Origin: a virus
Direction: 5' to 3' (one strand)
Virus record (IMG/VR): IMGVR_UViG_3300032083_002722
Location: 1-40,459 of that record
DNA length: 40,459 nucleotides
Every line of letters begins with the position of its first letter. Position 1 is the stretch's first letter. This document shows positions 9,690-40,459 of this stretch, one piece after another. Both the position numbers and the translations under genes were made by a program. The notes beneath the pieces were generated by a model. It worked only from the letters and a program-made list of their open reading frames with translations. It was not told the origin of the DNA and made no database searches.

Positions 9690-10136
9690 TTATTTTTCAT
9701 ATTTGTATTGAAATCCTACTGAACCTTTTAAAGGGTTAAGCAGATTTAAATCCCCACCCCCTAAAGGAATATTAAAATTGCTCGTTATCCCTGAGAAAGG
9801 ACTTTTTTCCTGCATATTTAAATTTTGATTTTCTGGCATTATACTTATACTTTGATCTGGTGGTGTAATACCATATGTATTGTACACATCAGGGGGCATA
9901 ACATTATCAAAATAATTAGTGCGAGCTTTAGTTCCGCCAAACAAAACCCCTACAATTCCTAGGTTTTTATTATTTTGTTGGCCTGCGAGTTGATTATTTA
10001 TGCTCATCATTAGTGGGCTATTTATTGCAGGTTCATTACCTCCAGGAGCTTCACCACTAGGACTACCCATTGTATCTCCGCCCTGATAACCTTGCCCCAT
10101 AGCTTGAGCTTGTCCTGGACTCATTCCTAATGCCAT
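9690..10136 (-). CDS. Hypothetical Gln/Asn/Gly-rich protein next to portal
   Basis: 148 residues starting MALGMSPGQAQAMGQGYQGG with a low-complexity G/N/Q N-terminus, and ending in a patterned region (NFNIPLGGGDLNLLNPLKGS, then VGFQYKYEK). The GAGGAG ribosome site is close behind the portal stop codon. Short proteins of this composition lie next to the portal gene in related phages and may be head-tail joining components. Specific function unknown. Confidence 0.45.
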   Translation of the reverse strand: MALGMSPGQAQAMGQGYQGGDTMGSPSGEAPGGNEPAINSPLMMSINNQLAGQQNNKNLGIVGVLFGGTKARTNYFDNVMPPDVYNTYGITPPDQSISIMPENQNLNMQEKSPFSGITSNFNIPLGGGDLNLLNPLKGSVGFQYKYEK

Positions 10137-10147
10137 ACTAAACTCCT

Positions 10148-21158: not shown

Positions 21159-21392
21159 TTAATCTTTTTTATTCCCCTCACTCCAGTGTCCTTGGATTCT
21201 ACTCCCACAATCAGAGCAACCGATTCCATGGCGTTCTTCAGAGAGTAGATGAAAATAAGCAGACCCACATAAGGAACAAAGCACAATATCAACTTCTTCC
21301 TCTATTATAGTAACTGGGACAACTGGGTCTGGTCTTTTGAACTGGATAATGTTGGTATTATCATAAATGGGGGAGTTTTTCTTTTTTTCCAT
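21159..21392 (-). CDS. Zinc-ribbon protein, 77 aa
   Basis: A four-cysteine zinc site, CSLCGSAYFHLL and CSDCGSRIQGHW, lies in a 77-residue protein with an acidic linker (VPVTIIEEEVDIVL). It probably binds one zinc and may bind nucleic acid or protein. Its 5' end overlaps the 3' end of the next gene by 88 nt, which is unusually long; one of the two starts or ends could be mis-set. Confidence 0.55.
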   Translation of the reverse strand: MEKKKNSPIYDNTNIIQFKRPDPVVPVTIIEEEVDIVLCSLCGSAYFHLLSEERHGIGCSDCGSRIQGHWSEGNKKD

Positions 21393-21817
21393 ACTGCTAA
21401 TCTTTTCTTTTCACCATTATAATATTGGTGATATGCTTTTATAACATCTGCATTTTTATATTCGTCGGGCATTGCCTGAGCAAATTTAGTTAATCCTGTA
21501 TTAGTTAATTCTACAGGGGGATCTTTTACAATGGCAAGTATTTTCTCACAAGCATGAACTCTATTATACCTGAAGGTATACTCTTTACATAAACTTATGC
21601 CTAACTTCCACAACCATCTGTAATTGTTTACAGTTTCGCCTGCCCATAGAGTACAAGGGTGTTTTTGATGCACAGGTTTATAAGGAGCTTCTTGGTTGTA
21701 TCGCCAATTAACAGTACATAACATCTGTGTTGTTTCTAAAGGCATTTTGACAACGTGTTTGTCGCAATGGTAACGAGCACAAGTTTCATGGTCGTAGTCT
21801 AATAAAAATATATTCAC
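21305..21817 (-). CDS. Phage protein with MNIFLLD/HCDKHVVKM signature
   Basis: GTG start (TAGTG overlap with the previous stop). 170 residues: MNIFLLDYDHETCARYHCDK, HVVKMPLETTQMLCTVNWRY, KPVHQKHPCTLWAGETVNNY and WLWKLGISLCKEYTFRYN. Proteins with this HCDKHVVKM...HPC..WA...NY.WL pattern occur in many marine phages; some are annotated as DNA-glycosylase-like, but I could not confirm a catalytic motif. The conserved His and Cys suggest metal binding. The C-terminus overlaps the zinc-ribbon gene. Confidence 0.5.
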   Translation of the reverse strand: MNIFLLDYDHETCARYHCDKHVVKMPLETTQMLCTVNWRYNQEAPYKPVHQKHPCTLWAGETVNNYRWLWKLGISLCKEYTFRYNRVHACEKILAIVKDPPVELTNTGLTKFAQAMPDEYKNADVIKAYHQYYNGEKKRLAVWKKRKTPPFMIIPTLSSSKDQTQLSQLL

Positions 21818-22156: not shown

Positions 22157-22711
22157 TTACTCCGAAGGGTTCAAATCATTGTCTAACAGTTCAATAAGTA
22201 CGTTTTTAGCTATATCATAATGGGGTCGACCTCTATATTTATGGTCTAAATAATCTCTACCATTAACAATAATATCTCCTGCAAGATAATTTCCTCGCAA
22301 ATACATTCTTTGACAATGAAAAACTAATTCTAATTTATCTGCTATATCACAACAATCTTTTTCTTTATCGGTCACAGGGAAATTAACCCCTAATTCGCAG
22401 TTGTATTTAAATTCTATTTTAGCAACCTCAACTGCCAGACGATCGTAATCCCATTTAGTTGTCGCAGGTATATCTCCTGTTCTGCTTTCTGCAATATCAT
22501 GATACATTAAATGTAAAAGAGCATTTTTTGAAAGATCAGGCCATAAAGTCTGTAAAATAACCATTGCTCTCCAAGTATGTGCTGCGACATTTTGCCCATC
22601 ACCGCAATCTGGGCGTGTATGGTATCTTAATATATGACCGCCTTTTAATCTTTCTAATACATCTTCTAAGTTAGCATCTCGCTGTGGTTTCCCGTTAGTC
22701 CTCGTGTCCAT
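22157..22711 (-). CDS. HD-domain phosphohydrolase, DatZ/YfbR-like
   Basis: 184 residues from the ATG of MDTRTNGKPQRD, which has a CGGAG site. The HD signature is clear: GQNVAAHTWRAMVILQT (His 45), LMYHDIAESRTGDIPATTKW (His 71, Asp 72) and CDIADKLE (Asp 122/125). The family hydrolyses (d)NMPs or dNTPs; the TGDIP-TK-W stretch resembles phage dATPases of the DatZ type as well as YfbR nucleotidases. It overlaps the polymerase gene by 46 nt, tying it to DNA synthesis or nucleotide-pool control. Confidence 0.78.
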   Translation of the reverse strand: MDTRTNGKPQRDANLEDVLERLKGGHILRYHTRPDCGDGQNVAAHTWRAMVILQTLWPDLSKNALLHLMYHDIAESRTGDIPATTKWDYDRLAVEVAKIEFKYNCELGVNFPVTDKEKDCCDIADKLELVFHCQRMYLRGNYLAGDIIVNGRDYLDHKYRGRPHYDIAKNVLIELLDNDLNPSE

Positions 22712-24582
22712 GGTTTCTCCGTAAATGTTTGTTTTGCTTCCCCCCAATTTGGTCCAAATTCTGCATCAACTATTGAAGGGACTTCTAGTTTAACACAGTT
22801 CTCCATTATTTCTGTAACTATTTTTGCTTGTTTTTCATTTTCTACAGAAATATCTAATTCATCGTGAACTTGAATCATAGGTAATATGCCTTCTTCATTT
22901 AAAGCTACCATCGCGGCTTTAGTTTGGTCAGCAGCACTCCCCTGGATTAATTTATTAAGAGCTTTGTAAGTAAATGCTCGTTTTATCGCAGGTCCGTGTT
23001 CGTTAAAAGCTTCTTGATAATTTAAAGGTTTCCAAATGCCATATCTGTTTGGTTCCCATTTGTCGAATCTGCACCTGCGTCCTAAAACTGTGCGGATTAC
23101 TCCTTTTTGGCTGGCTCTGTTGCTAGAATATTCACTGAGTTCACGCACAAAAGGAACTTTTTCGTGGTATGTTGCAAATAATTCTTTTGCATCTTCAAAT
23201 TCTAAACCAAGACTTGCCGCTAATTTTTTAGACCCCATGCCATAAAATAAACCAAGGTTGATATCTTTAGCTTGCTTGCGTGGGACACCAACAATATCTG
23301 CCGCCATTTGATGGAAATCAGTGCGAGGGTCTTCATTATATTGTTCGGCAAACTCTATTGCCCCTCTGAAGTTCATCAACTTAGCATAATGTACAACAAT
23401 GCGTGGTTCTTGGCTAGAGTAGTCAAATGCACCCCACAATGTATCTTGTTCTGGTAAAAACAAACTGCGTATCATAGGTCCGATTTCACCATGCCTTGCA
23501 GGTATTTGTTGCAGATTCGGGTTACTGTAGCTAAATCTTCCTGTTACTGTGCCGCCTTGGTCGTTACGCAGTGGGTGAAGCTCTGCGTGAATACGGCCTT
23601 TAATTTGATGTTTTAAAATAGTATCAACAAAAGTGCTACGAGCTTTGTTAAACTCTCTTGCTTGCACAATTTTTTGAGCTACCTCGTGGGGGTGGTTACT
23701 TAAAAAACCTTTCGTAAAGCTAGGAGCTCCAGTTTTTTCTGTTTTTGCGTAATCTAAACCTAACTTATCAAAAACTTTTGCTACAGATTCAGCCGCCCAC
23801 ATTTCTACAGCGATTCCTGTTTGTTTAGCTACATCATCTAAAAGTTTTTTCTCTCGTTGCTTTAAATCTATTTTTATTAGCTCTGTTTTATCTACATCAA
23901 CTCTTACTCCACGTTCTCGCATAGGAATAATGGTTTTGAGAACTTTTAATTCTAAATCTAAAATATCGCTGATTTCTTCTTTAATTATTAATCCTTTAAA
24001 AAACTCCCATAAACGTAAAGTGAGTGCCGCATCTTGCTCTGCATAAGCTCCTACATACGCGGCAGGGAGTTTATACATTTCACTTTTAGCGTTTACTCCA
24101 AATGCTTCAGCTGCTTCTCGTAATTCTACTTCAGACTTACGTTCTTGTAAGTAATCTCTGCCAATAGCGTTGAGGGCGTAACTGAATCTATTTTCGTCGA
24201 GCAACGGTGCAACGACCATCGTATCCACGATTCGCCCTTTGATAAGCACATCTTCGGCGAGCAACCACCCAACATCATACTGAGCATTATGGAAAACGTA
24301 ATCACGATTAATTTTGCATACATCTCTTAACCAACTTAATGTGACTTTAGGATCAAAATTAGGACCATTTTCATGTCTAATAGGAAAGTACCATTGATTT
24401 CCTGTTACTGCAACTGCCACACCAATTATGTGTCCATCTTTCCTTGCCCAACCCGAACCCATTGTAGTTAAATTAGGGTCTTTAGTTTCTAAATCTATAG
24501 CTATTTCTTCGTAAGAGCTTAAATCTGGGTAGCCATCTGGCATAACCCATTCAGTAGGTGGCTTAAATAGAGGTAACTGCAT
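22666..24582 (-). CDS. polA: DNA polymerase family A with 3'-5' exonuclease
   Basis: 638 residues. Exonuclease motifs: EIAIDLETKD (Asp 30, Glu 32), FHNAQYDVGWLL (Asp 103) and YAEQDAALTLRLWE. Polymerase motifs: WGAFDYSSQEPRIVVHYA (motif A), RKQAKDINLGLFYGMG (motif B) and PMIQVHDELDIS (motif C). No 5'-3' exonuclease is present, typical of phage replicative enzymes. Residue 443, aligned to Phe762 of E. coli Pol I, is Leu (DINLGLFYG). It is the likely replicative polymerase, working with the primase and helicases upstream. Confidence 0.93.
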   Translation of the reverse strand: MQLPLFKPPTEWVMPDGYPDLSSYEEIAIDLETKDPNLTTMGSGWARKDGHIIGVAVAVTGNQWYFPIRHENGPNFDPKVTLSWLRDVCKINRDYVFHNAQYDVGWLLAEDVLIKGRIVDTMVVAPLLDENRFSYALNAIGRDYLQERKSEVELREAAEAFGVNAKSEMYKLPAAYVGAYAEQDAALTLRLWEFFKGLIIKEEISDILDLELKVLKTIIPMRERGVRVDVDKTELIKIDLKQREKKLLDDVAKQTGIAVEMWAAESVAKVFDKLGLDYAKTEKTGAPSFTKGFLSNHPHEVAQKIVQAREFNKARSTFVDTILKHQIKGRIHAELHPLRNDQGGTVTGRFSYSNPNLQQIPARHGEIGPMIRSLFLPEQDTLWGAFDYSSQEPRIVVHYAKLMNFRGAIEFAEQYNEDPRTDFHQMAADIVGVPRKQAKDINLGLFYGMGSKKLAASLGLEFEDAKELFATYHEKVPFVRELSEYSSNRASQKGVIRTVLGRRCRFDKWEPNRYGIWKPLNYQEAFNEHGPAIKRAFTYKALNKLIQGSAADQTKAAMVALNEEGILPMIQVHDELDISVENEKQAKIVTEIMENCVKLEVPSIVDAEFGPNWGEAKQTFTEKPWTRGLTGNHSEMLT

Positions 24583-24727
24583 TTGAAATCACTTTCATTG
24601 GTTCTTTACATTTTTTACAATGAGGCCATCTGTTTTTTAAATTTCTAAAAGTGACTTCACGCTCTTCTTTTCCGCACTCACAAACAACTTTAGTAGTTTT
24701 ATCTAAATCAGTTGGTTTGGGTTTCAC
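24563..24727 (-). CDS. Small zinc-ribbon protein, 54 aa
   Basis: GTG start chosen because GGAGG lies about 6 nt upstream (product begins MKPKPTDLDKTTKVV). Two CxxC-type pairs, VCECGKEEREVTF and HCKKCKEPMKV, form a zinc ribbon. It overlaps the polymerase start by 20 nt and the previous gene stop by 20 nt, so expression is coupled to Pol A. It may be a DNA-binding accessory factor. Confidence 0.55.
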   Translation of the reverse strand: MKPKPTDLDKTTKVVCECGKEEREVTFRNLKNRWPHCKKCKEPMKVISNAVTSI

Positions 24728-25154
24728 AAGAATCCTCCAAAAACTCAGCATAAGCAAGATAGTTTGCTTCCTCAGGAGTAGGTGGGTTTTTTATTGTGTT
24801 TTTTGAAAGTGCATCTAGCCTTATGACTTCAGCTTCCACTAATAATAAGTACCTTCTAAGGTCGCGTATATCATCAATCACACCTTCTGCCCTAGCGTCT
24901 TTTAAAACAGCTTTGAAAATATCGTACTCTGAATCAGAGGACTGTAACTCTAATCTGTCCCACTTTCGGGCAAGCATCATAAACGCACCTTGCCCACCAC
25001 GTTGTTTCCAGCTGTTTCCATAGTTCTTTTCTGATTCATGCAAACAAACGATGTCTGATTTAGCTATTTTATCTACAAGGTAGATAATTTCACTTTGTAT
25101 ATCTTTTGAATCTAAAGATTCATTTAAACGCTGTACTTCTAATGGCTTTTTCAT
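24708..25154 (-). CDS. Nmad1-like (DUF1599) nucleotide-modification-associated protein
   Basis: 148 residues with a core KNYGNSWKQRGGQGAFMMLA, RKWDRLELQ and VIDDIRDLRRYLLLVEAEV. The YG-SW--RGG--AFM-L-RKWDRL pattern is that seen in phage proteins related to nucleotide-modification-associated domain 1. This domain co-occurs with DNA base modification genes but its activity is not established. The location just downstream of the FkbM/TS/glycosyltransferase genes agrees with it. Moderate confidence in the family, low in function. Confidence 0.5.
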   Translation of the reverse strand: MKKPLEVQRLNESLDSKDIQSEIIYLVDKIAKSDIVCLHESEKNYGNSWKQRGGQGAFMMLARKWDRLELQSSDSEYDIFKAVLKDARAEGVIDDIRDLRRYLLLVEAEVIRLDALSKNTIKNPPTPEEANYLAYAEFLEDSCETQTN

Positions 25155-25453
25155 TTGTGTTCCTTTAAAGTGAAGAATTCAAAAAAACTTTCTAAAATAG
25201 TTTTTTTGCGTGGGAGTTTAGGGGCAGAACCTACAGCCTCTGCTTTAGCTTTTTTTATTACTTCAACAAGTTCCTCATTGTATTCACTAGAAGGAACCCT
25301 TGTGTAAAGAACATAACCTAATTCTGTCTCATTTAAACTACATTTTGCTTTTATTTCGTCGCGGCTACAGCCGAAATCGTACAAGTTGTGTGCCTTATTT
25401 ACTAAATCTTGGGGGTATCTTCTATAAGGTCTTTTCTTTGCTTTCTTTTTCAT
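25151..25453 (-). CDS. Small basic protein with helix-turn-helix-like segment
   Basis: 100 residues starting MKKKAKKRPYRRYPQDLVNK. The segment LYDFGCSRDEIKAKCSLNET followed by ELGYVLYTR has the spacing of a helix-turn-helix, and the N-terminus is very basic. It probably binds nucleic acid. Its 3' end overlaps the next gene (ATGA). Confidence 0.5.
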   Translation of the reverse strand: MKKKAKKRPYRRYPQDLVNKAHNLYDFGCSRDEIKAKCSLNETELGYVLYTRVPSSEYNEELVEVIKKAKAEAVGSAPKLPRKKTILESFFEFFTLKEHK

Positions 25454-25463
25454 TTGGTTCTCC

Positions 25464-26108
25464 TTATTTTTTCCAATAGACTCCGTCTTGTATCACCCAA
25501 TAACTATTGCAATCTTCTTGCTTAGTTAAAACATAACCTCTGTTTTTTAAAATATCGTACTTTTTATTTTTAGAAACTTCTTGTTCTTCCCAATACGATT
25601 GTGTGGTTTTACCTCTAACTGCCACATGGTCTTCTGTAATTATTTCAACAGGCATAACACTCCAATCATAACTTTCAAAAATAGTTGTATCATTCCCTTC
25701 TGTATCTACTTTTAATATATCAACATGGTTTATATTATTTTCTGTTAAAAGAGTATGTAGCGTTTTTGTGGGAACTTCTTGGTATTCATCTGTTAAATGT
25801 TGGGCAACAAACTCCTCACTATTAACTAAAGAGGAACGCATACACTTTTCTTTCTGAGCAGGCGACCTCCTATCAAAAAACCCATACTTCCCCATAAACA
25901 GTTTGCCTACACCATCTGTTGAACTAACTGCACAATGAACGTATTTAAAATCAGTGCCTTTTAAACTTTTAAATATATCCTCTTTCATATAAGCATTAGG
26001 CTCTACCATTAAACCAAACCATGTTTCTTTTTTACGATGCAAAAGTTTGTTAGCTAAAGATAAAGTACGAGCATTAAAACAACCGATATCAACTATTGTT
26101 TTTGTCAT
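25464..26108 (-). CDS. FkbM-type S-adenosylmethionine methyltransferase
   Basis: Start at MTKTIVDIGCFNARTLS (GAGGAGG upstream); its ATG overlaps the thymidylate-synthase-family stop. The FkbM core is visible: TIVDIGCFNA (SAM-binding motif), TLHTLLTENNINHVDILKVD and TEGNDTTIFESYDWSVMPVE, where the VDILKVDTEGND motif is diagnostic. FkbM enzymes usually O-methylate sugars or hydroxyls. Next to a glycosyltransferase in the same operon, methylation of a DNA-linked sugar is a reasonable inference. Confidence 0.8.
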   Translation of the reverse strand: MTKTIVDIGCFNARTLSLANKLLHRKKETWFGLMVEPNAYMKEDIFKSLKGTDFKYVHCAVSSTDGVGKLFMGKYGFFDRRSPAQKEKCMRSSLVNSEEFVAQHLTDEYQEVPTKTLHTLLTENNINHVDILKVDTEGNDTTIFESYDWSVMPVEIITEDHVAVRGKTTQSYWEEQEVSKNKKYDILKNRGYVLTKQEDCNSYWVIQDGVYWKK

Positions 26109-27085
26109 TTTAACCTCCTCTCTAACCATTCTACACAAGCCCTACGCCAAGCCCTATCTTCTATAGTGTAGCATTCATCTATAGCTTTTAAAGGCCACTT
26201 GTTTTTCCAAAAACTCCATGCCCTGCGTACAGGGTCACAGGTTGTTTCTAAATATTTGTTTTCATAGTGTTGATACAAAGTACCCTGTGTAAACCATTTT
26301 TTTAACTCTGTATCAAATGTATCAGGGTTATTTATTAAATAGGGTGAAGTATAAGAAAGCCCTTGGTCGGATAAAGTTAAGTAGGGTTCGTAATCTGGTT
26401 GCATATCATCTAATTTGTATAACACATCTGTGTATGCATGAAGATTATTACTAAACTGATAATAATCACCTACTTTTAATTTCAGTTTACCTGCCATGTA
26501 CTCAAGCAAAAAAGACATATGTACAGCATTTGCTCCATAAGCACCCCATATCATATCATTACTACGATTAACTACAGTCATGTGTAGTTTTTCATCTCTT
26601 TTCCAAAAAAAGATTTGTGTATTGCAAGGGTAATCTTTTCCGCCATTATCTGTCCGTAAATCTTCCCACGGATCCCACATACCCACTACAGTTCTTCTAT
26701 CGTTTTCGTATAAAGATAATCTTTCTAGGGCAGTTACTAACTGGTCGTCGCCAAACCATTCACGCCATCTAAAACCATACGCACCATGGAATACATCGCC
26801 ATCATCACTATATTCTTCAATGCGGTGGTTGAACTGGCTAATCCATTCTACATCATTACGTCCTGCTAACATCCAAAGGCTTTCCATTAAATGAAAAAAG
26901 GGGTTAGCATCTCTTTCAGGGTAGAACATCACACGTTGCCTACTGTTTCTGTACTTTGTAATAACAGGACCAGTAAACTCTAAAGCATCTCCGTTTCTGG
27001 TTTGAACTAACCGCCCTTCCTCTTTTATGGCTTGCTTAACTACCCATAAAGCTTCGCTGACGTTTTTTACGTTAAATGTTTGCAT
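26105..27085 (-). CDS. Thymidylate synthase / dUMP hydroxymethylase family enzyme
   Basis: 326 residues with the TS fold: NPFFHLMESLWMLAGRNDVE, HGAYGFRWREW, KDYPCNTQIFFWKRDEKLHM (the predicted catalytic Cys follows Pro), VNRSNDMIWGAYGANAVHMS and YYQFSNNLHAYTDVLY. The RS-D...N block that binds the pyrimidine is kept, and the Asn (GANAVH) favours a dUMP-type substrate over dCMP. The usual His after the catalytic Cys is replaced (PCN instead of PCH). In phages this family makes either dTMP or 5-hydroxymethyl-dUMP; the neighbours favour the second, as inference. The ATGA overlap couples it to FkbM. Confidence 0.75.
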   Translation of the reverse strand: MQTFNVKNVSEALWVVKQAIKEEGRLVQTRNGDALEFTGPVITKYRNSRQRVMFYPERDANPFFHLMESLWMLAGRNDVEWISQFNHRIEEYSDDGDVFHGAYGFRWREWFGDDQLVTALERLSLYENDRRTVVGMWDPWEDLRTDNGGKDYPCNTQIFFWKRDEKLHMTVVNRSNDMIWGAYGANAVHMSFLLEYMAGKLKLKVGDYYQFSNNLHAYTDVLYKLDDMQPDYEPYLTLSDQGLSYTSPYLINNPDTFDTELKKWFTQGTLYQHYENKYLETTCDPVRRAWSFWKNKWPLKAIDECYTIEDRAWRRACVEWLERRLK

Positions 27086-27117
27086 ATAAAGCCCCTCTGA
27101 CTGCTCATTTTAATATT

Positions 27118-27160
27118 TGGGTAGTAACACCCATTAATGTAACTCAGGGCAACACTGCCC
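27118..27160. repeat. Two small hairpins between the glycosyltransferase and TS genes
   Basis: TGGGTAGTAACACCCA (around 27117-27132) forms a 5-bp stem and GGGCAACACTGCCC (27147-27160) another. They lie in the 86-bp gap and may slow transcription or protect the downstream message; no clear T-run follows. Confidence 0.35.
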
Positions 27161-27171
27161 CTTAAACACTT

Positions 27172-28191
27172 TTAAACACGCTCAAATAAAAATTCAAAGT
27201 ATTTTTGGCCTATTATGTATTCGCTGTGTTGTTCTAAGCTTTTAAATCCATTGATACGCATGATTTCTATTATATCATAAGGCTGAACAGTTTTCAACAC
27301 TTCTGCTAAATTTTCAGGACTATTTACAGTAAGACAATTATATCCTGGAATCATATCATCAGGTTTATCCAATAGCCAACTCTCGTGTATGATAGGAATA
27401 CAACCTGCGTTCCATGCTTCTAACCAAGTGTACTGAGTACCACCACCATCACCAACTATATGGGTCATATCTACGTTAAATGTGTAACCCTTCATTAATT
27501 CTACTGCGTAATTTTTCTCTCTGGGGTAATGTGCTTTAGATTGCTCCCACTCAGGGTACTTTGGCACTATCTTAAACCTAGTATATATTCTGTTCTCAAA
27601 ACCACGAATGTTTATTTTGCTACCTTCGGGTAATAACCTGTTAGCATCTAATAAAATATCTGTGCGTTTATCAAAATCTATACGAGAAGTGCTTATCGCC
27701 TTGTTACCTGTGGTGTTTGTACGTTCCATGTTAAAACGAGACTCACCTGTGTGTTCCATAAAACTGTAGGGGTGTCTTATAAAAGTAGGCTCTTTACCTG
27801 TTGCTTTTTTAAGAACTTCTATGCCTATTTTTCTAATCACTACGCACCTGCTCGAATCTAACGGATTCGGAAGGTTTTTTAGCTCTGTCGGATCATGTAC
27901 AACTATACTAGCATCACCCTCTTTATACAGTTTGAGCGTTTGTTCTTTAAACTGTTTAGCACCTGCTACGATTAACTTTTCATACTTGCGTGATAAAGCA
28001 ACTTCCATAGATATGTTTCGGTACAGTTTATCATAACCAAACTTACGAGTGAACTTTTCAGTTTTGGGTCTTATCTTAAATAGGTTGCATTTAACACCTA
28101 CAGCTTCTAGTGCTTCTATTAAGTGACAAGTATAAGTAACCCAACCACCATACGGATTAGGACTTAAATAAAATAAATCTACTTGTTTCAT
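27172..28191 (-). CDS. GT-B glycosyltransferase, candidate DNA glucosyltransferase
   Basis: 339 residues. The N-terminus MKQVDLFYLSPNPYGGWVTY resembles the donor/acceptor start of GT4-like enzymes. The middle has ISTSRIDFDKRTDILLDANR, and the C-terminal Rossmann part has THIVGDGGGTQYTWLEAWNA followed by GCIPIIHESWL, the E-A-x-A-x-G-x-P-V/I hallmark of GT-B enzymes. It is coupled by ATGA to the preceding gene. Within this cassette it may add a sugar to a modified thymine in DNA; a capsular-type activity is an alternative. Confidence 0.75.
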   Translation of the reverse strand: MKQVDLFYLSPNPYGGWVTYTCHLIEALEAVGVKCNLFKIRPKTEKFTRKFGYDKLYRNISMEVALSRKYEKLIVAGAKQFKEQTLKLYKEGDASIVVHDPTELKNLPNPLDSSRCVVIRKIGIEVLKKATGKEPTFIRHPYSFMEHTGESRFNMERTNTTGNKAISTSRIDFDKRTDILLDANRLLPEGSKINIRGFENRIYTRFKIVPKYPEWEQSKAHYPREKNYAVELMKGYTFNVDMTHIVGDGGGTQYTWLEAWNAGCIPIIHESWLLDKPDDMIPGYNCLTVNSPENLAEVLKTVQPYDIIEIMRINGFKSLEQHSEYIIGQKYFEFLFERV

Positions 28192-29138
28192 GCGACACCC
28201 CCCTCAGGTAAATCTACTTGTAATAAAGTGTTTCCATCGTATTTGCTTCTAGGCTTACCCTGCCCATGCAATACTCTTTCGTATTTATCCCACTCACATA
28301 AGCTATGCTCAATAGTTCGCATATCAACTTCAGCTAAAGGAACATGGGGTAAAATAAACTCTTTAGCATCTTCTAAAAGAAGTTGCATTTCATGGTTAGC
28401 TTGTATTTGACTCATGCCTTTTTTTAATTCACGTTGGTGGATTCTGTTTAAACCCCTAATCGCTCCTGGACCTGCATTAGCCCATTCAAATCTATCTTCA
28501 GCATATCTTAATACAGGTGTGTAGTTCAAATCAGTAACCACTTCATAAGACATAAAGCCACCGCCACCCCAACCTCGGTACTGTTTAAAAAACTCATGGG
28601 TTTCTTGTAAAGATCTAGTACTCTTTGCAACTTCTGCTATTTTGTCTGAATCTTTATATATAGGTTTTAAGAAGTGGTCTATCACAACTTCAGCTTTGGG
28701 TAGTTTCAACCCTTGGTTTGTGATAATATAAGCTCCTGTAAAGGTTCTTTTCTTTTGAGAAATCATATCAGAAATTAATTGTTTGCTGTGCAAAGGATTC
28801 CAAGTAGAATCAAATTCTACCCAACCATGTTCCTCAGCAAACTCTACTGTGCCAATCATTCTAAACAAACAACAATTAAAAACAATTTCTGCCCATGATT
28901 TATTATCATTAGGTTTTGTCCAGTTGTTTCTCATCCAAACTGTTACACGATCATTTTCTCTAAATGGGTTTGTGAATTTAAAGTTTTGCAAAATGGGGTC
29001 AGTTGTCCAAGGTGCTTGTTCTTTTTTAATTCTGCGTTGATAAATGGCATGGCGTTCGTTTATCCAATAAAAATACCTACCTTTTTCTGTAGATAAATGT
29101 TTATTGCGTAGTAATCTTGTTATTACTGTGTCTTGCAT
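28188..29138 (-). CDS. 5-hmdU DNA kinase helical / aGPT-Pplase-like DNA modification protein
   Basis: Start chosen at MQDTVITRLLRNKHLS because AAGGGAG is 6 nt upstream (316 residues). The N-terminal third carries RYFYWINERHAIYQRR, PWTTDPIL and FKFTNPFRENDR, a signature recalled for the 5-hmdU kinase helical domain and the related aGPT-Pplase enzymes that act on hydroxymethyluracil in phage DNA. Further conserved-looking motifs are VIDHFLKPIY, FKQYRGWGGGGFMSYEVVTD and WANAGPGAIRGLNRI. No P-loop is visible, so it is not an entire kinase. Its stop overlaps the glycosyltransferase start. Confidence 0.65.
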   Translation of the reverse strand: MQDTVITRLLRNKHLSTEKGRYFYWINERHAIYQRRIKKEQAPWTTDPILQNFKFTNPFRENDRVTVWMRNNWTKPNDNKSWAEIVFNCCLFRMIGTVEFAEEHGWVEFDSTWNPLHSKQLISDMISQKKRTFTGAYIITNQGLKLPKAEVVIDHFLKPIYKDSDKIAEVAKSTRSLQETHEFFKQYRGWGGGGFMSYEVVTDLNYTPVLRYAEDRFEWANAGPGAIRGLNRIHQRELKKGMSQIQANHEMQLLLEDAKEFILPHVPLAEVDMRTIEHSLCEWDKYERVLHGQGKPRSKYDGNTLLQVDLPEGGVA

Positions 29139-29217: not shown

Positions 29218-30246
29218 TTAAGAAACTGAAGCATATTCCAATACTTTTGTCAATGCTTTTCGTTTAGTGTTTGCACCGCTACCTAACCAAGCAGAGTGCA
29301 GAGCATTACCTTCAGCTAAAGATTTTTTCTTATGATCTATAACATAAGTAACACCATTCAAAGCCCCCCACCAAGTTCCCTTGGCAGAATCCATATTTGA
29401 TCCTGGTGAGTTTTCTACTGCTTCATGTACAAGTTCTGCAGTATGGCTGAACTCTTCATGCAAGTGTGGTAGAATGTCTGGGTTAGAAGCTTTTGCTCTT
29501 TCAATAAGCAGTTTAGGTTGAAACAACTCTGCAATAAAGTTATCTACATCGAACTTCTCAGCTTTCTTATTAGCTAAAAACTCAGACTGTTCTTGGAACT
29601 TTGTCATTTGCACAGTACTCAACCCTAAAGCTTCCTCTGCTGCTTTTTGGATTTCTTCATCAAACATTTGTAAGTGCAATACTCTAAAGCGGTCTTGATT
29701 ACGTTCTAAAGCTAACGTCAAAGTATTGTTACAAACAACTCTAATAGGCGTAAGCATAACAGTCATAGCTTTGCCTACCTGATGGCTATTGTTTAAAAGC
29801 AAATAGCCACCTACTTCATCGTTTCCAGGAAGGGAAAACTTACTGGTCAATTTGGCTAAACCCCAAATGTCCTTACCTTCCTTTAAACTGCCTGCTGTTT
29901 CCATTTCCATTTTACCTGCTTCAGTAAACCTTTTAAAAAAGTCCATAACTTCAGCATTTTGAAAAGGCACATAACTTTCACCACAAGGGGATAATACTTT
30001 GTTATCACTATCCCTAACTAAAAAGTGGTTATCAGGGCATCTTAAAAACCCTGCTTCACCTGTGGGGTCGATAATGTTCCAACAATCTGGTTTATCTGTA
30101 GTAAAAGCAGGTCGTTTGCTTACTGTCCAGTCTAACTGAGCAGCTTTTAACATTTGCTCAGGTGTCATACCATTGTCGACTTTTTTACCTAAACCATGCC
30201 AAGGAACCTCTCCTGCGTAGGCCATTGTTTCTACTTCATGTGACAT
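29218..30246 (-). CDS. DUF932 phage/plasmid-like protein
   Basis: 342 residues matching the DUF932 pattern: MSHEVETMAYAGEVPWHGLG, then VDNGMTPEQMLKAAQLDWTV, FQNAEVMDFFKRFTEAGKME, VGKAMTVMLTPIRVVCNNTL and a C-terminal GTWWGALNGVTYVIDH. The family is common in phages and plasmids; its role is unknown. The RBS box GAGAAAGGAG precedes the ATG. It is separated from the next gene by the 29163-29194 hairpin. Confidence 0.82.
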   Translation of the reverse strand: MSHEVETMAYAGEVPWHGLGKKVDNGMTPEQMLKAAQLDWTVSKRPAFTTDKPDCWNIIDPTGEAGFLRCPDNHFLVRDSDNKVLSPCGESYVPFQNAEVMDFFKRFTEAGKMEMETAGSLKEGKDIWGLAKLTSKFSLPGNDEVGGYLLLNNSHQVGKAMTVMLTPIRVVCNNTLTLALERNQDRFRVLHLQMFDEEIQKAAEEALGLSTVQMTKFQEQSEFLANKKAEKFDVDNFIAELFQPKLLIERAKASNPDILPHLHEEFSHTAELVHEAVENSPGSNMDSAKGTWWGALNGVTYVIDHKKKSLAEGNALHSAWLGSGANTKRKALTKVLEYASVS

Positions 30247-33811: not shown

Positions 33812-34621
33812 TTAAAATGGTATTTCATCATCCATAGGCCGTGTGGCATTAGCACTTTTTTCTTGTGCTGTTACTTCTCCTGCTTTTACAGAAAGGGCAA
33901 ACGATACAGCAGTTTCAAACAAGCTTGTATCTGCGGCATTATCTAAATCTAATTGTCGTTTTCTTTTAATAGAAAAACCAAACCAATCCCCCTTGGAATT
34001 TTTCTCTTGCACAGAAGTTAATGTCCATATTTGTGACATCAATGGCATTGTATAAATTGTGCCGTCTGCTTTTTTACCTGTAAAAGCTTGGGCATTTGAC
34101 AGCCAACTACGAGACTTTTTAAGCTGTGATGAAGCCATAGGTATAAGTACCCTTTGCGGACCAAGGTTTTCATGTATCATTAAACTGAAAAACTGTGCTG
34201 TGTTAGCCAAAATATTTCCATTAGGTAATAACTCTTGGAAAATGTTTGGGTCTGGGTGTGGCTTTACAGTGCTGACAATAGGGTCGTTTGGTAAATAAGA
34301 ACCTTTAAAACCGCCACCTTGGTCTCTGGGAACCCATTCATTGTACCGCCTATTATAATGGCAAGCAATTACATCAATGCCTTTAATACCATCGTACCCT
34401 TCCCCCAATACTGAGTTGAAAAACATTCCTGGTTTGAGCCCGTCAATATATTCAGGGCTTCGCTCCATTGCCTGTGGTGATTTAGTATCTAATATTCTTA
34501 AAAAAGGTATAGCAAGATCTTCTGCTTGTACTTCTGAAAATCCTGCATTGCCATACTCTTCAAATGATGCTGTGGCAACAGCAGTGTTTTTTGGTTTGGT
34601 TAACTCACTTTTATTAGCCAT
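33812..34621 (-). CDS. Putative single-stranded DNA-binding protein
   Basis: 269 residues. The C-terminus ends RPMDDEIPF, the acidic tip typical of SSB and phage SSB-like proteins that recruits polymerase and primase. The body is mixed beta/alpha (DLAIPFLRILDTKSPQAM, YDGIKGIDVIACHYNRRYNE, IWTLTSVQEKNSKGDWFGFS). It lies between the primase and small replication genes. The tip and context support an SSB-like role; no OB-fold can be shown by eye. A GAGGAGCG ribosome site precedes the ATG. Confidence 0.6.
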   Translation of the reverse strand: MANKSELTKPKNTAVATASFEEYGNAGFSEVQAEDLAIPFLRILDTKSPQAMERSPEYIDGLKPGMFFNSVLGEGYDGIKGIDVIACHYNRRYNEWVPRDQGGGFKGSYLPNDPIVSTVKPHPDPNIFQELLPNGNILANTAQFFSLMIHENLGPQRVLIPMASSQLKKSRSWLSNAQAFTGKKADGTIYTMPLMSQIWTLTSVQEKNSKGDWFGFSIKRKRQLDLDNAADTSLFETAVSFALSVKAGEVTAQEKSANATRPMDDEIPF

Positions 34622-34631
34622 GTTCGCTCCT

Positions 34632-35186
34632 CTAGCTTTTTGGTTTATCTATTTTGGTTTTTTCACCTATGTAGATGTTGAACAGATCAGCAGGTATTTC
34701 CACACCCTTTTCTGATTCTGTCTTAATCCACCCTTTCAACGTCATGGGTTCTACCCACTTTCTTGTATTAAAAGATTCGCCTTCTTCTTCTAATTTCTTT
34801 TGGAACTCGTCAGCTTTAGCTTCCTGTCCACGCACAAAATTCACAGCCACTACATTTTTAATTAAATCGCCATGATTATTGTTTATCAGCCAATCGAATG
34901 CTTCTTGCGTTTTTTCTTTTGAAACAGAACCATTGTAAAACTTTTTTATCTCAATCTTAGAACCATCGTTCATAGTAAAGTCTTTCATGTTGTTTTCGTG
35001 CATAGCGGCAGGTAAAAGATCTTCTTGTATTTTTCTAAGGTCTTTTTTAGTTTCTTTTACTTCTGCTTCTAAACTGGCTACTTTGTTTTCTAAAATAAGT
35101 TGTTGGTGGGCTAAAGAGCTTACTAAGCTCAAACCCTTTTGGTCTGTTTGCGTTAATTGACTTGCAATATTTTCAAAACTATTCAT
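34632..35186 (-). CDS. Conserved replication-module phage protein
   Basis: 184 residues beginning MNSFENIASQLTQTDQKGLS, with a coiled-coil (LENKVASLEAEVKETKKDLR), then LLPAAMHENNMKDFTMNDGS and FNTRKWVEPMTLKGWIKTES near the C-terminus. The pattern of IPAAM-x-F-TLKDG...NTxL is common in replication modules of podophages, with unknown function. Its stop lies near the SSB-like start, implying co-expression. Confidence 0.55.
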   Translation of the reverse strand: MNSFENIASQLTQTDQKGLSLVSSLAHQQLILENKVASLEAEVKETKKDLRKIQEDLLPAAMHENNMKDFTMNDGSKIEIKKFYNGSVSKEKTQEAFDWLINNNHGDLIKNVVAVNFVRGQEAKADEFQKKLEEEGESFNTRKWVEPMTLKGWIKTESEKGVEIPADLFNIYIGEKTKIDKPKS

Positions 35187-35508
35187 TACTATCTCCTGGT
35201 CGGTAATTTAGGTCAGCCTGCAAAGGAAAGTATTTGCCTTCTTGCCTATCCCATTTTAACATTTTAAATTTACCAGAATTATTACGCGCTGCGATAGCAG
35301 AAGCTAAAGCAATAGCTGTAGGGTCTCCTGCCAATAGCAAGTAATCTTCATCATTAAATTTGCTAAGTTTTCTGGTAATTCTTCTTATTGTAGGTTGTGT
35401 GGAAAGTGTTGCCTGTTCACCTACAGGTAATAGTATTTCTATATTCCCAAAGCTTGTAGCATCTGTAATGTCTCTGCCACGCATTTCTTGGGTTATGTAA
35501 ACGGTCAT
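35179..35508 (-). CDS. Hypothetical protein, first gene of the replication operon
   Basis: Start at MTVYITQEMRGRDITDATSF, with GGAGAGAG just upstream. 109 residues; FGNIEILLPVGEQATLST, RRITRKLSKFNDEDYLLLAG and GDPTAIALASAIAARN are typical of short phage proteins with an LKWDR-type C-terminus. Its 5' region carries element B. Function unknown. Confidence 0.55.
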   Translation of the reverse strand: MTVYITQEMRGRDITDATSFGNIEILLPVGEQATLSTQPTIRRITRKLSKFNDEDYLLLAGDPTAIALASAIAARNNSGKFKMLKWDRQEGKYFPLQADLNYRPGDSNE

Positions 35509-35590
35509 GTCTCTCTCCACATGGTGTTAAGTGTTTAGTTGTAGCATGGGAAACAAAAATTATAAAGCAAAAAATAATCAAAAAACTTCG

Positions 35591-35847: not shown

Positions 35848-37287
35848 ATGCGATATAAATTTAAATACAAACCATATGAGCATCAGTTAGAAGCTCTGAA
35901 AAAATCTTGGGATAAACCCCATTATGCTTTATTTATGGATATGGGAACAGGTAAATCTAAAGTTCTTATAGATAATATAGCTATGCTGTATGACAAAGGT
36001 GAAATAGACTCAGCTTTAATTATTGCACCTAAAGGTGTGTATAGAAACTGGGAAAGAAAAGAGTTACCTGCACACTTACCTGAGCATATAACTGCGAACG
36101 TAGTTACTTGGTCTCCACAAAAAACTAAAAAGAAACAACAAGAGTTAGATACTTTAAATGTAGTTTCTGATGATCTGCAAATTTTTCTTATGAATGTTGA
36201 AGCCTTCTCTAGTAAACGTGGTGTAGAAGTAGCAGATAAGTTTTTAATGTGTCATAGGTGTATGTTTGCAGTAGATGAAAGCACTACTATAAAATCAAAA
36301 GGTGCTGCACGAACAAAGAATATGATAAAATTAGGTAAAACCGCACCTTATAAAAGGATACTAACAGGTTCGCCTGTAACTAAATCTCCATTAGATTTGT
36401 TCACACAATGCGAGTTTTTAGATGAGGGCATATTAGGACACAGCTCTTTTTGGACTTTTCAAAACCGCTATGCTAAAATGGTTCGCAAAACTATGGGAGC
36501 ACATTCTTTTAACCATATAGTAGGATACCAAAATTTGTCTGAATTAAACCATTTAATAGAAGAGTTCAGTTTTAGGGTTCGCAAAGAAGATTGTTTAGAC
36601 TTACCAGATAAAGTTTATACAAAAAGGTTAGTAGAATTAACTCCTGAACAGCATAGGCTGTATGAGCAAATGAAAAGAAACGCATTAGCTATTATAGAAG
36701 GCGAAGGTTTAGTTTCAGCACCTACTGTTTTAACGCAGTTACTAAGACTACAACAAGTTTGTTCTGGGTTTGCTAAACTAGAAGATGGCAGGGTAATAAA
36801 AGTACCAAGCAATAAATTAAATGAACTTATGTCTATGTTAGAAGAAATAGATGGCAAAGTTATTATTTGGGGAAACTTTACACACGATTTAGAATTGATT
36901 GGCGAAGCTCTTAGTAAAAAGTATGGAGAAGATTCAGTAGAGTTATTTTATGGTGGTACTGCTGCTGATGATCGGCAATTAATTGTAGAACGGTTTCAAG
37001 ACCCAGACAGCCCCCTAAAGTTTTTTGTAGGCCAACCACGCACAGGAGGCTATGGCCTGACCTTAACAGAGGCTAAAACTGTCGTGTACTACAGTAATGG
37101 TTATGATCTAGAAGTTAGGTTGCAAAGTGAAGACAGAGCTCACCGTATAGGCCAAAATAATAAAGTAACATATGTAGATATTATTGCAGAAGGCACAGTA
37201 GACGAAAAAGTATTACAAGCTCTACGCAGTAAAATAGACATCAGCTCTCGAGTTTTAGCTGAAGGCTATAAAGAATGGATTATTTAA
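35848..37287 (+). CDS. SNF2-family superfamily 2 helicase/translocase
   Basis: 479 residues, the only plus-strand gene. Motif I FMDMGTGKSKVLIDN, motif II VDEST (a DEAH variant), motif III LTGSPVTKSPLDLF, and a C-terminal domain with FVGQPRTGGYGLTLTEAKTV and LQSEDRAHRIGQNNKVTYVD. The AHRIGQ motif is typical of SNF2 enzymes. It is a dsDNA translocase/helicase probably used in phage replication or recombination. GAGGGATT precedes the ATG. Its stop overlaps the stop of the convergent 37284 gene. Confidence 0.9.
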   Translation: MRYKFKYKPYEHQLEALKKSWDKPHYALFMDMGTGKSKVLIDNIAMLYDKGEIDSALIIAPKGVYRNWERKELPAHLPEHITANVVTWSPQKTKKKQQELDTLNVVSDDLQIFLMNVEAFSSKRGVEVADKFLMCHRCMFAVDESTTIKSKGAARTKNMIKLGKTAPYKRILTGSPVTKSPLDLFTQCEFLDEGILGHSSFWTFQNRYAKMVRKTMGAHSFNHIVGYQNLSELNHLIEEFSFRVRKEDCLDLPDKVYTKRLVELTPEQHRLYEQMKRNALAIIEGEGLVSAPTVLTQLLRLQQVCSGFAKLEDGRVIKVPSNKLNELMSMLEEIDGKVIIWGNFTHDLELIGEALSKKYGEDSVELFYGGTAADDRQLIVERFQDPDSPLKFFVGQPRTGGYGLTLTEAKTVVYYSNGYDLEVRLQSEDRAHRIGQNNKVTYVDIIAEGTVDEKVLQALRSKIDISSRVLAEGYKEWII

Positions 37288-40200
37288 GTTAACTGGTTAG
37301 CCATTCTTCTTTTTTCTATAGCTTGCCCAGTTGAATCAAAGGGGAATAAATCTCCTACTCCTAAACTAGCTATTCCTGCGTTATTATCTACACTGGCTTG
37401 AGTTGGAGATATTACAGGGGCAGCAGGTAGAACAGGAGGAATATTTAATTCTTCTCCTCTTTCAGGGTTAAAGGATTGATTTGGTAAAGGCACTACAGTT
37501 TCGTTTTCAACAGGAGCTTCAAGGGCATCGATTTCTACTACAGGTTGATTTGAGCTAACACCGAACTCCGTAGTAGGGTCTTCACCTTGATAATCAACAC
37601 CTGTTCTAAACAAATAATTATTAATTAACCGATTATATTTAGGCAAAATGCCACCAACGCCTACTTCTGGAGGTTGATTAGTGGCTAATAGTTTAGCTAT
37701 CTCAGGATCAAACATCATAGCCCTAAACATTTCGTCTGCTCTAACAGAGCCTTGTTTTGCAAAAGATCTTACTAATAAGTTCAATGCTACAAATTGTCCG
37801 CTTATACGACTTTCTTTAGCTGCTCTAATTTGGCTTGAAGCAGAAGGGATAGAAACCCCTGTTAGTTGGTTGAATTTTTCTGCAAACCCTGCTGCTGTTC
37901 CACTTAATCGTTTTAACATTTCAGGGTTGATTCCTGTTCTATTAAACCTATCTGTAACATCAGCTATTATTTTTAGATTTCTAATATGTTCTGGTGTGAA
38001 CGCATTTTGTAAAGACCTAGCTATATCGCTCGTCTCAACATCAAGCAACTCTGAAAAATTTCTAGGGTTTTCTAAAGCAGAAGGGTTTTCTGAAAGAGCT
38101 TTTCTTGTTATAGCAGCAAGGAACGCTTTTTCAGCTTCTTTTGCCCCGAAATTCTTTACAAACTCACCTTTAGGGTCAAGGATTTTTGTTTTTAACTCTA
38201 ACATTAATTTAGGACTTCTTAAAGCATCACCTACAAATTGTTCTGGAGTTTCACTACCTGATGTATTTTTTAAAATAGCTTTATTTAATAAGTTGTTTGC
38301 TACAGCTTCTTTTCTACCTGTTAACTCTCTGTTTCTAAGAACCATGTCATCTAAAAGAGTTTTAGTATCTTTAAATTTTGCAGATAAACCTAACTCTGTT
38401 AGCATAGCATCATTATCATTTACCCAAGTATTGAATTTTTCTGGTTTAAACTGTGCTAAATTGTCAGAGTATGCTGCCCCTCTAAGCCTATCTAACAAAA
38501 TGCTTTCCATATTATCTACATATGCTTGGTCATCACCAAATAACTTCATAAACTGTTTTGCTGTATTTGTGTCTTTTAAAAAAGCTTCGGCTACATTTTC
38601 ATCAGGAATCCTATATATAGGATCTGCTGATATATTCCCAGGTCCTTTTGCAGCGATTTTTATTAATCCGCTACGTTCAAAAGGAACAATAATATTTTCT
38701 CCATACCATGTATTAAATTTCTGAAAGTTTTTACCAATAGCTGAGTTTGTTCTGCCAAACTGTTCTGCCATACCATCTAGTTCTTTAGCTAAAACTGTTA
38801 GTTCTCTCACTTGTGTGCCGTTCCTATTAGCCGCAGCTTGACCTATCGCACTGGTTACTTGGTTTCTGAACGACCGCCAATCTTGAAAATTAATTCTATT
38901 ATTTGTTCCAAACTTTTTATCAATAAAAGTTTTTACAAAAGGGTGAACTTTTTCTAAAGAAATATCTAAAGCATCTATGTTTAATTCTTGTCTAACATTG
39001 TTTTGAGCAGCAAGAGTTTGTTCTGCTGTCGCTAACATAGTTGAATCATTTATTTTTAATTTTTTAGCAAGGTTTTCTGCACTTTCTTTTGCTACTTCAT
39101 ACTTTTTTAAATAATCCGCACGAATATTTATACCAGCAGATTTAGCCTCTTTTGAATTAAATAGTGGGATAACACCATCAGCATCATGCATCATTTTATC
39201 CCAAGCAGTAGTTATATCAAACCCTTCTTGATCTAATAGTGCTATAGTTGAAGTGTACTGTTTTTTCAAAGGATCATAAATAAATAAAGGTGCATCACCT
39301 TCTGTAAAAGCAACATTCTTTTGGTTTTCAGGGTTTAAAATACTGCTAAGAAACTTTCTGTTAGCAAGTAAGGCGGCTTCTTTTCTATTCATATTAGCTT
39401 CAACAAAAGCAGGTCTTGCTGTGCCACCAGACCCTATCTCCATCTCAGCTGCTTTTTGTGTGTTTAGAAGTTTAGGATCTAAAGTTCTTTCTGCAGGAGT
39501 TATTATTACTTTTTCGTTTACTTCAGTAAACCTGTTTAATGTTTTTTCTATTTCAGTGGCTTCGGCTATATTTTTTTGTACCACAGCACTTCTTTGTGCA
39601 GACCTTAAATCTTCTCTAAGGATACCTTCTACTGCTTTGCCTCTTGCACCTTCTGTTAATTTAGATATAGGCACAGTATCCTCTGCAGTAACAATACTTT
39701 TGCCCATCCTATACTCAGGAAGTCCAATATTTTTTACCCATCGAAAAGCATTGCTCATAGGAGATAAATTTTTAACAACTGTAAAAGCACCTCCTAAAGT
39801 AAGAGGAGCCCCTATAGCACCAATACCTGTGTTAGTTTCAAAAACATCTTCTTCTACTTGTTGCCCAACACCTGAAAGACCAGACAGTGCTGTTTCAACA
39901 CCTACTGTTGTAGCAGGCGCACTTCTAAAAGGATTTAAAAAAGCATCTCGCACATTGTCCCAAGGTATTTTCTTCCCTACTTTTTCAACAACCGTAGGAA
40001 CTTTACTTATTCCTGCGGCTATTTTTTGTGCTATAGTAGAAGGCACTACAAAAGAACTAGCAAACCCAGAAGTATCAGCAAGTTGATTTAAATAAGAATC
40101 ATCTTTAGTTGCTCCAACATACTCTCCTGAACCAATGGATAAAAGGTACGGCACAATAGTTTTTGCCCTTTCATAATCTCCTGAAGCACCTATTCTTTGC

Positions 40201-40459
40201 AATAAATCTTTATCATAAACATCAGGAAAACCTGCTGCATCTAAAGCTACATTTAAAGTATTTAATACTGAATCAGGCACAGCATAAACCATTTTATTAA
40301 ACGAACGCATAAATTGTCCAGCACCTGTAGCACCTAATGTTGTGTCTAATCCTTTTAACAAAGCAGGGGCATTTTCTACTAGTGCTTTTTCAAACTCTAC
40401 ATTAGCTCCTTCTGTAACCATACCTGTTACCCTACTGGGTTTTTTGATAATTTCTGCTA
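37284..40459 (-). CDS. Large internal virion-type protein, 5' end beyond the window
   Basis: More than 1045 residues. The frame remains open from the first ATG (40421) to the right edge, encoding about 12 further sensible codons upstream (IIKKPSRVTG), so the true start is probably outside. The sequence is helical and Ala/Asn/Lys-rich with no catalytic motif: GATGAGQFMRSFNKMVYAVP, then VETALSGLSGVGQQVEEDVF and a Pro-rich C-terminus PPVLPAAPVISPTQ. Length, composition and expected place after tail genes suggest an internal core/DNA-ejection protein. A tail-associated role is an alternative. Confidence 0.6.
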   Translation of the reverse strand, partial: AEIIKKPSRVTGMVTEGANVEFEKALVENAPALLKGLDTTLGATGAGQFMRSFNKMVYAVPDSVLNTLNVALDAAGFPDVYDKDLLQRIGASGDYERAKTIVPYLLSIGSGEYVGATKDDSYLNQLADTSGFASSFVVPSTIAQKIAAGISKVPTVVEKVGKKIPWDNVRDAFLNPFRSAPATTVGVETALSGLSGVGQQVEEDVFETNTGIGAIGAPLTLGGAFTVVKNLSPMSNAFRWVKNIGLPEYRMGKSIVTAEDTVPISKLTEGARGKAVEGILREDLRSAQRSAVVQKNIAEATEIEKTLNRFTEVNEKVIITPAERTLDPKLLNTQKAAEMEIGSGGTARPAFVEANMNRKEAALLANRKFLSSILNPENQKNVAFTEGDAPLFIYDPLKKQYTSTIALLDQEGFDITTAWDKMMHDADGVIPLFNSKEAKSAGINIRADYLKKYEVAKESAENLAKKLKINDSTMLATAEQTLAAQNNVRQELNIDALDISLEKVHPFVKTFIDKKFGTNNRINFQDWRSFRNQVTSAIGQAAANRNGTQVRELTVLAKELDGMAEQFGRTNSAIGKNFQKFNTWYGENIIVPFERSGLIKIAAKGPGNISADPIYRIPDENVAEAFLKDTNTAKQFMKLFGDDQAYVDNMESILLDRLRGAAYSDNLAQFKPEKFNTWVNDNDAMLTELGLSAKFKDTKTLLDDMVLRNRELTGRKEAVANNLLNKAILKNTSGSETPEQFVGDALRSPKLMLELKTKILDPKGEFVKNFGAKEAEKAFLAAITRKALSENPSALENPRNFSELLDVETSDIARSLQNAFTPEHIRNLKIIADVTDRFNRTGINPEMLKRLSGTAAGFAEKFNQLTGVSIPSASSQIRAAKESRISGQFVALNLLVRSFAKQGSVRADEMFRAMMFDPEIAKLLATNQPPEVGVGGILPKYNRLINNYLFRTGVDYQGEDPTTEFGVSSNQPVVEIDALEAPVENETVVPLPNQSFNPERGEELNIPPVLPAAPVISPTQASVDNNAGIASLGVGDLFPFDSTGQAIEKRRMANQLT

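Follow-up and report, generated by a model that had tools for sequence, protein, structure and literature searches.

The virus record IMGVR_UViG_3300032083_002722 of IMG/VR, analysed here over its whole length of 40,459 bases (the window), carries a cassette of four genes that probably writes a sugar onto thymine positions in DNA. In this reading 5-hydroxymethyluracil (hmdU) would be made as a nucleotide, incorporated and then O-glycosylated, with a protein of the HMUDK_hel family presenting the base and an FkbM-family enzyme perhaps methylating the sugar. Among related viruses, phages that are otherwise nearly identical have exchanged their decorating enzymes at one replaceable slot, and this exchange suggests that the viruses are trading DNA disguises.

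The genes lie on the minus strand in the order DUF932 protein, HMUDK_hel, glycosyltransferase, thymidylate synthase (TS)-like enzyme, FkbM methyltransferase, two small proteins, family A DNA polymerase (PolA) and HD-domain phosphohydrolase. The HMUDK_hel gene starts with the ATG at 29138, preceded by aaagggagc. A preliminary description of this DNA had pointed to four genes in one direction joined by ATGA overlaps at two of their three junctions. All four open reading frames were located and the overlaps lie at 28191-28188 (HMUDK_hel and glycosyltransferase) and 26108-26105 (TS and FkbM), while an 86-bp gap separates the glycosyltransferase from the TS. In related phages the cassette genes are kept at 61-75% protein identity, with dN/dS values of 0.11-0.14 that apply only where dS is unsaturated, most pairs being saturated. 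Since the genes are conserved and nonsynonymous changes are far fewer than synonymous ones, the arrangement is not a product of chance.

The TS-superfamily enzyme (326 amino acids, 26105..27085, minus strand) matches Thymidylat_synt (PF00303, E = 2.3e-19) and phrog_5131 (E = 1.1e-102), and is a predicted dUMP hydroxymethylase on the basis of its active-site residues. These were read from an alignment of the window protein with 55 TS sequences of its family, those of phages M6 and Sonora, SPO1 gp29, T4 gp42 and Escherichia coli ThyA, with ThyA numbering; T4 gp42 was left out at columns 58 and 177, where it is misaligned. At every position that entered the comparison, the E. coli ThyA sequence shows the residues published for it. 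The catalytic Cys146 and Asn177 are invariant in the window and the 55 relatives, Asn177 being the dUMP-type residue of the superfamily (PMC8670742). The relatives have Asp in place of Leu143, Tyr or Phe in place of Trp83 and Asn in place of His147, all nearly or fully invariant, and no residue aligning with ThyA Trp80. The window enzyme has Y83, D143, N147 and N177, a pattern common to M6 and to SPO1 gp29 (with F83), which is annotated as a dUMP hydroxymethylase. In the T4 dCMP hydroxymethylase Val85 and Asp145 occupy the positions of Trp83 and Leu143, and have been tied to hydroxylation as against hydride transfer (PMC6400193). Because the active-site signature matches those of SPO1 gp29 and M6, we strongly infer that the window enzyme makes 5-hydroxymethyl-dUMP and not dTMP.

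The HMUDK_hel protein (316 amino acids, 28188..29138, minus strand) has the helical domain of 5-hmdU DNA kinases (PF18723, E = 5.7e-54), with no kinase alongside. It is 35% identical to its counterpart in the Pseudomonas phage M6 and shares with it the motifs WTxDPIL, TGAY, FMxYEVVTDL, WANAGPGAIRGLNR and IEHxLCExDKYERV. Its structure model (mean predicted local distance difference test score, pLDDT, 88) matches the PhiW-14 and phiRSL1 proteins and the fused kinase of SP10, and together with the strong PF18723 match this bears out its earlier placement in the 5-hmdU kinase helical group. The model also has weaker matches to amino acid:DNA transferases (ADDT) and to an endonuclease III (E = 0.63), and none among PDB structures; searching the PDB by sequence with the HMUDK_hel and FkbM proteins gave nothing meaningful. 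A helix-hairpin-helix DNA glycosylase was considered and rejected, given that the endonuclease III match reaches only this E value, that the PDB search was empty and that comparing profiles with those of E. coli Nth and of ADDT gave nothing significant.

The 5-hmdU DNA kinase (PF18748) is absent from the window and from 35 relatives, many of them 50-69 kb long, and was detected in the controls M6 and Sonora; we have therefore dropped the idea of a kinase located elsewhere in these records. The ADDT family (PF18724) rises over its cut-off solely in the same two controls. The absence of both argues against amine or amino-acid chemistry. As the HMUDK_hel domain is kept with such different partners, it is most simply seen as a module that would recognise hmdU in DNA and present it. 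In M6-type DNA the resistant sites favour TG and TC contexts, for which the 5hmdU kinase has been proposed as the cause (PMC6449724); HMUDK_hel may be a candidate source of this site selectivity.

The glycosyltransferase (339 amino acids, 27172..28191, minus strand) belongs to a family without a database name. Searches of Pfam, PHROGs, NCBIfam and the INPHARED phages gave no match to it, a sequence search of the PDB gave nothing noteworthy, and the hidden Markov models of the known DNA glycosyltransferase families PF11440, PF09198 and PF20691 do not match it. The last of these is the TAGT family, which is absent from the window. The structure model (pLDDT 76, predicted template modelling score 0.80) has many GT-B matches, the best with E = 1.7e-10, of the GT4 kind: HepE, PimB′ with GDP-mannose, MshA and PimA. 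It also matches the DNA-bound T4 alpha-glucosyltransferase (E = 1.2e-7). Thus the predicted model has the GT-B fold that had been ascribed to this gene. All members of the family that were found come from viral contigs; among 85,462 cellular species scanned there was no relative. In one locus with both the glycosyltransferase and the FkbM gene (L096; loci are cited by our own numbers), a mannose-6-phosphate isomerase-type cupin (2868-3254; PF01050, E = 8e-36) lies between the TS gene and a conserved small protein, a hint of a mannose-type donor in that phage.

How constant is the cassette among related viruses? Scanning for HMUDK_hel gave 80 loci and scanning with a glycosyltransferase alignment gave 22, and slot contents were counted in 50 records. 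The constant frame is DUF932, HMUDK_hel, slot, TS, small protein, PolA and HD protein. The slot holds the glycosyltransferase family of the window in 13 records, a second GT-B-like family in 20, TAGT in 14 and another protein in one, and is empty in two. The second family is unrelated to the window glycosyltransferase and has weak Glycos_transf_1 matches. Each phage has a single type of glycosyltransferase in the slot, and no record combines TAGT with a different occupant; the TAGT loci usually have a radical S-adenosylmethionine (SAM)/SPASM enzyme as well, and in many cases a zinc-ribbon protein. At least nine changes of slot content were counted on a polymerase tree that covers 61 phages. 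Loci L042 and L045 share 96% identity as far as the end of HMUDK_hel and 90-95% from a point just ahead of TS; the glycosyltransferases that separate these two stretches are unrelated. L018 and L096 differ by a clean swap between HMUDK_hel and TS, the second glycosyltransferase family in one standing against the window-type glycosyltransferase plus FkbM in the other. In T2/T6-type phages TAGT puts a second glucose on glucosyl-hydroxymethylcytosine (PMC13216743, PMC13390438), and the slot is thereby tied to DNA sugars independently of the window glycosyltransferase. The earlier picture of a cassette with a glycosyltransferase therefore stands for the presence of the enzyme, and is amended in that the enzyme is one of several interchangeable slot occupants.

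Some loci contain further genes. The radical SAM/SPASM enzyme (e.g. L028, 11911-12963; L107, 7000-7998) is found mostly with TAGT, but with the window glycosyltransferase family in L105-L107; as a side reading, it may be a third chemistry joined to sugar transfer. In L080 (10916-11932) and L081 the slot contains a protein of 338 amino acids with no family match, possibly another type of transferase. An NrdR-like zinc-ribbon protein is found between HMUDK_hel and TAGT in L008 (10849-11205), as in many loci.

The FkbM-family methyltransferase (214 amino acids, 25464..26108, minus strand), a predicted sugar O-methylase, was correctly recognised at the outset: it matches Methyltransf_21 (PF05050) with E = 8.3e-11 and 42.7 bits (cut-off 22.7), and TIGR01444 with 43.4 bits (cut-off 37.7). 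The corresponding family, METHYLTRANSFERASE (PF05050), is found in nine of the 50 records, eight being among the 13 with the window glycosyltransferase family and one among the 37 others (Fisher p = 1.9e-5, uncorrected for kinship). The matches lie beside the cassette or within a few kilobases of it. L104, L108/L109 and L067 have FkbM genes that a search with the window protein does not recognise and that are placed upstream of HMUDK_hel, so FkbM probably became associated with the cassette on several separate occasions. The FkbM-type enzymes that have been characterised O-methylate sugars and polyketides, which makes methylation of a sugar the natural reading of this gene.

The pathway can be set out as follows. 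The TS-like enzyme would convert dUMP to 5-hydroxymethyl-dUMP, the step for which the active-site residues argue strongly. Kinases would carry this to hmdUTP, and the phage PolA would insert hmdU for thymidine, while the HD phosphohydrolase may drain competing thymidylate or other deoxynucleotides. HMUDK_hel, which is fused to a kinase in SP10, would recognise hmdU in DNA, select the site and present the base; its partner here would be a glycosyltransferase in place of the kinase. The enzyme of predicted GT-B fold would then take a sugar from a nucleotide-sugar donor and attach it to the oxygen of the 5-hydroxymethyl group, and the product would be an O-glycosyl-hmdU like base J. In the least certain step, FkbM would O-methylate the sugar. 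DNA bearing such sugars would be shielded from host nucleases. That hmdU is glycosylated in DNA we regard as likely, while methylation of the DNA-bound sugar by FkbM has a little less than an even chance. The hypermodification pathway proposed in the preliminary description is thus upheld in its hydroxymethyl-dUMP basis, its glycosyltransferase and its FkbM enzyme, and the methylated sugar on thymine is an inference. In its widest form the proposal is tentative: thymine would be replaced by O-glycosyl-hmdU with an O-methylated sugar, a viral analogue of base J; HMUDK_hel would be a general hmdU reader that pairs with a kinase or with several unrelated glycosyltransferases; and the chemistry of the genome coat would be swapped like a cartridge.

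Several observations weigh against a pathway of this kind. FkbM is missing from five of the 13 records with the window glycosyltransferase family. GT4-type enzymes act mostly on lipids and small molecules, and the acceptor cannot be read from sequence. The failure to find a kinase rests on incomplete records, and a very divergent kinase could escape PF18748. In L060 and L070 (about 9990-12030) HMUDK_hel is followed directly by TS, with neither a slot enzyme nor a kinase found; we asked if HMUDK_hel is broken in these loci, and its reading frame is open. Either bare hmdU suffices there or the decorating enzyme is located elsewhere.

Other explanations differ in how much of the scheme they would alter. 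The synthesis and glycosylation of hmdU could be correct while FkbM acts on the sugar donor, on the free hydroxymethyl group of hmdU or on an unrelated substrate. The five records without FkbM favour this, as do its single occurrence with the second GT-B-like family and its position on either side of TS; on the other hand the glycosyltransferase and FkbM were gained or lost together in the L018/L096 swap, and non-orthologous FkbM genes recur with the same glycosyltransferase family in L104, L108 and L109. We consider this rather unlikely. A more distant reading makes the glycosyltransferase and FkbM auxiliary genes that alter host surface glycans or virion proteins, their position beside hmdU synthesis being incidental. 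The GT-B/GT4 relatives in the PDB do use mainly lipid and small-molecule acceptors, and FkbM enzymes are widespread in polysaccharide biosynthesis. Yet in every case the slot is flanked by HMUDK_hel and the hmdU synthase, TAGT fills it in sister phages, the swaps are limited to the slot, the glycosyltransferase gene overlaps that of HMUDK_hel translationally, and there is no membrane-type hydrophobic segment; such a role is quite improbable.

The roles of the two remaining proteins can be questioned in the same way. HMUDK_hel might itself be catalytic, for example activating the hydroxymethyl group, so that the slot enzymes merely finish or cap the product. Its many invariant polar residues, its distant structural likeness to the amino acid:DNA transferases and its intact state in L060 and L070, both of which lack a slot enzyme, would agree with this. 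However, it is equally conserved with a kinase (M6) and with glycosyltransferases, which a shared recognition role fits better, and no nucleotide-binding motif was found, leaving a catalytic role improbable. Lastly, the TS-like gene could be an ordinary thymidylate synthase for nucleotide supply, as Pfam and NCBIfam name it and as its dUMP-type Asn177 would allow. But the hydroxymethylase-type residues at 83, 143 and 147 are common to the 55 relatives, SPO1 gp29 and M6, and every NCBIfam dTMP synthase model scores far under its cut-off on the window protein. The enzyme does not fall among ordinary dTMP synthases, a placement that the preliminary description had named as fatal to its proposal; on the active-site residues we rejected this identity, to which we give a very slight chance.

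How does the cassette compare with known systems? The closest likeness is to M6, a member of the Mesyanzhinovviridae with 5-NedU in its DNA, whose comparable block includes HMUDK_hel (35% identical), a hydroxymethylase-type TS (41%), an HD protein and PolA. Its gene order is ADDT (PF18724), a pyridoxal phosphate (PLP) enzyme, a radical SAM enzyme, kinase (PF18748), HMUDK_hel (PF18723), Nmad5, TS, HD protein and PolA. Thus M6 has a kinase, ADDT, PLP enzyme, radical SAM enzyme and Nmad5, whereas the window is without kinase and ADDT and has the glycosyltransferase and FkbM instead. hmdU is the common intermediate of the M6-type pathway (PMC6449724). As the kinase and ADDT of the M6-type pathway are absent, SPO1 and W-14, offered earlier as models, serve like M6 itself as models for the hmdU precursor and not for its decoration. 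The SPO1 TS homologue carries the hydroxymethylase signature of the window enzyme, but no glycosyltransferase or FkbM gene is listed in a 49-kb part of SPO1, whose DNA is known for bare hmdU. DNA glucosylation in T-even phages (alpha-GT, beta-GT and TAGT) resembles the cassette in the GT-B fold, with alpha-GT among the structural matches, and in TAGT filling the slot in sister phages; it acts, however, on hydroxymethylcytosine, the TS homologue being the dCMP-type hydroxymethylase gp42. Base J of trypanosomatids, beta-D-glucosyl-hydroxymethyluracil, is an O-glycosylated hydroxymethyluracil like the product predicted here, but arises by oxidation of thymine in DNA by JBP1/2 followed by JGT, whereas the hmdUMP of the window is predicted to be made before replication. 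In the cultured Brevibacterium phage LuckyBarnes (L117, 3448-6612) a TS of 517 amino acids with the hydroxymethylase signature and an extra C-terminal part is followed by two consecutive TAGT-type genes, annotated as beta-glucosyl-HMC-alpha-glucosyltransferase.

By its terminase, which shares 61-64% identity with the HTVC027P and 023Pt_psg01 terminases, the window phage belongs to the marine HTVC023P/027P-type pelagiphage lineage. The first 20 kb of the Pelagibacter phage HTVC027P contain primase, helicase and PolA homologues and no HMUDK_hel, glycosyltransferase or TS. A host search against genome contigs gave six scattered matches to metagenome-assembled genomes, which pointed to no particular host. 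Uncultivated pelagiphages of this lineage have been described with TS and aG/PT-PPlase1 genes near PolA, accompanied in some cases by a deoxynucleotidase and a TAGT-type gene (PMC9599517); the part of that paper that we consulted does not describe the exchangeable slot, the missing kinase, the GT-B family of the window or FkbM.

The remaining genes around the cassette are also on the minus strand. The DUF932 protein (29218-30246) is first in transcription order, before HMUDK_hel. A small protein of 100 amino acids (25151..25453), between FkbM and the conserved small protein, accompanies the cassette in none but the closest relatives. The conserved small protein (24708..25154; motif YGxSWKxRGGxGAFMMLARKWDR) is part of the constant frame and adjoins TS in nearly all relatives. 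It had been called Nmad1-like, a label we have dropped because it matches neither PF07659 nor any other Nmad model: at E <= 1 PF07659 finds nothing in the window, in six relatives, in M6 or in LuckyBarnes, nor does it match any of 25 aligned members of this small-protein family. A form of its motif, YGxSWxxRG...RKxDR, also occurs in the C-terminal part of the LuckyBarnes TS. PolA (22666..24582; PF00476, E = 2.1e-64), predicted to incorporate hmdUTP, is a constant neighbour in the relatives and in M6. So is, in the relatives, the YfbR-like HD-domain phosphohydrolase (22157..22747; PF13023, PF12917), which has a weak match to the dATP triphosphohydrolase phrog_7076 and a homologue in M6 gp059. 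Elsewhere, a pyrimidine-dimer DNA glycosylase-like protein (21305-21817; PF03013) is conserved on the downstream side of the HD gene in the majority of relatives, three successive homologues of cyanophage Pam3 gp34, gp33 and gp32 (33812-35520) lie beside an AEP-type primase, and a protein of 1045 amino acids with no Pfam or PHROG match (37284-40421) adjoins an SNF2-type helicase on the opposite strand.

Thymidine hypermodification is already known in phages, and every enzyme class of the cassette has precedent. Glucosylated hmdU was, by one statement of 2019 (PMC6449724), unreported in phages, and we found no report of a sugar on hmdU in phages in the open-access literature, outside which most subscription papers fall. 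To this the present analysis adds the hydroxymethylase signature, the absence of the kinase, the slot with its interchangeable contents, a new GT-B family and the link to FkbM. The interest lies in their combination, in the evidence for swapping and in testability, since with the cultured LuckyBarnes the idea of a sugar on hmdU can be tested directly. The characterised thymine hypermodifications of phages proceed via a kinase and amino acids or amines. If our reading is correct, an HMUDK_hel cassette that has no kinase and whose glycosyltransferases are interchangeable would extend what is known of DNA base chemistry, give the puzzling HMUDK_hel domain a role and yield new hmdU-DNA glycosyltransferases as tools. 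It would also show phages trading genome disguises under the pressure of restriction and DNA-glycosylase defences.

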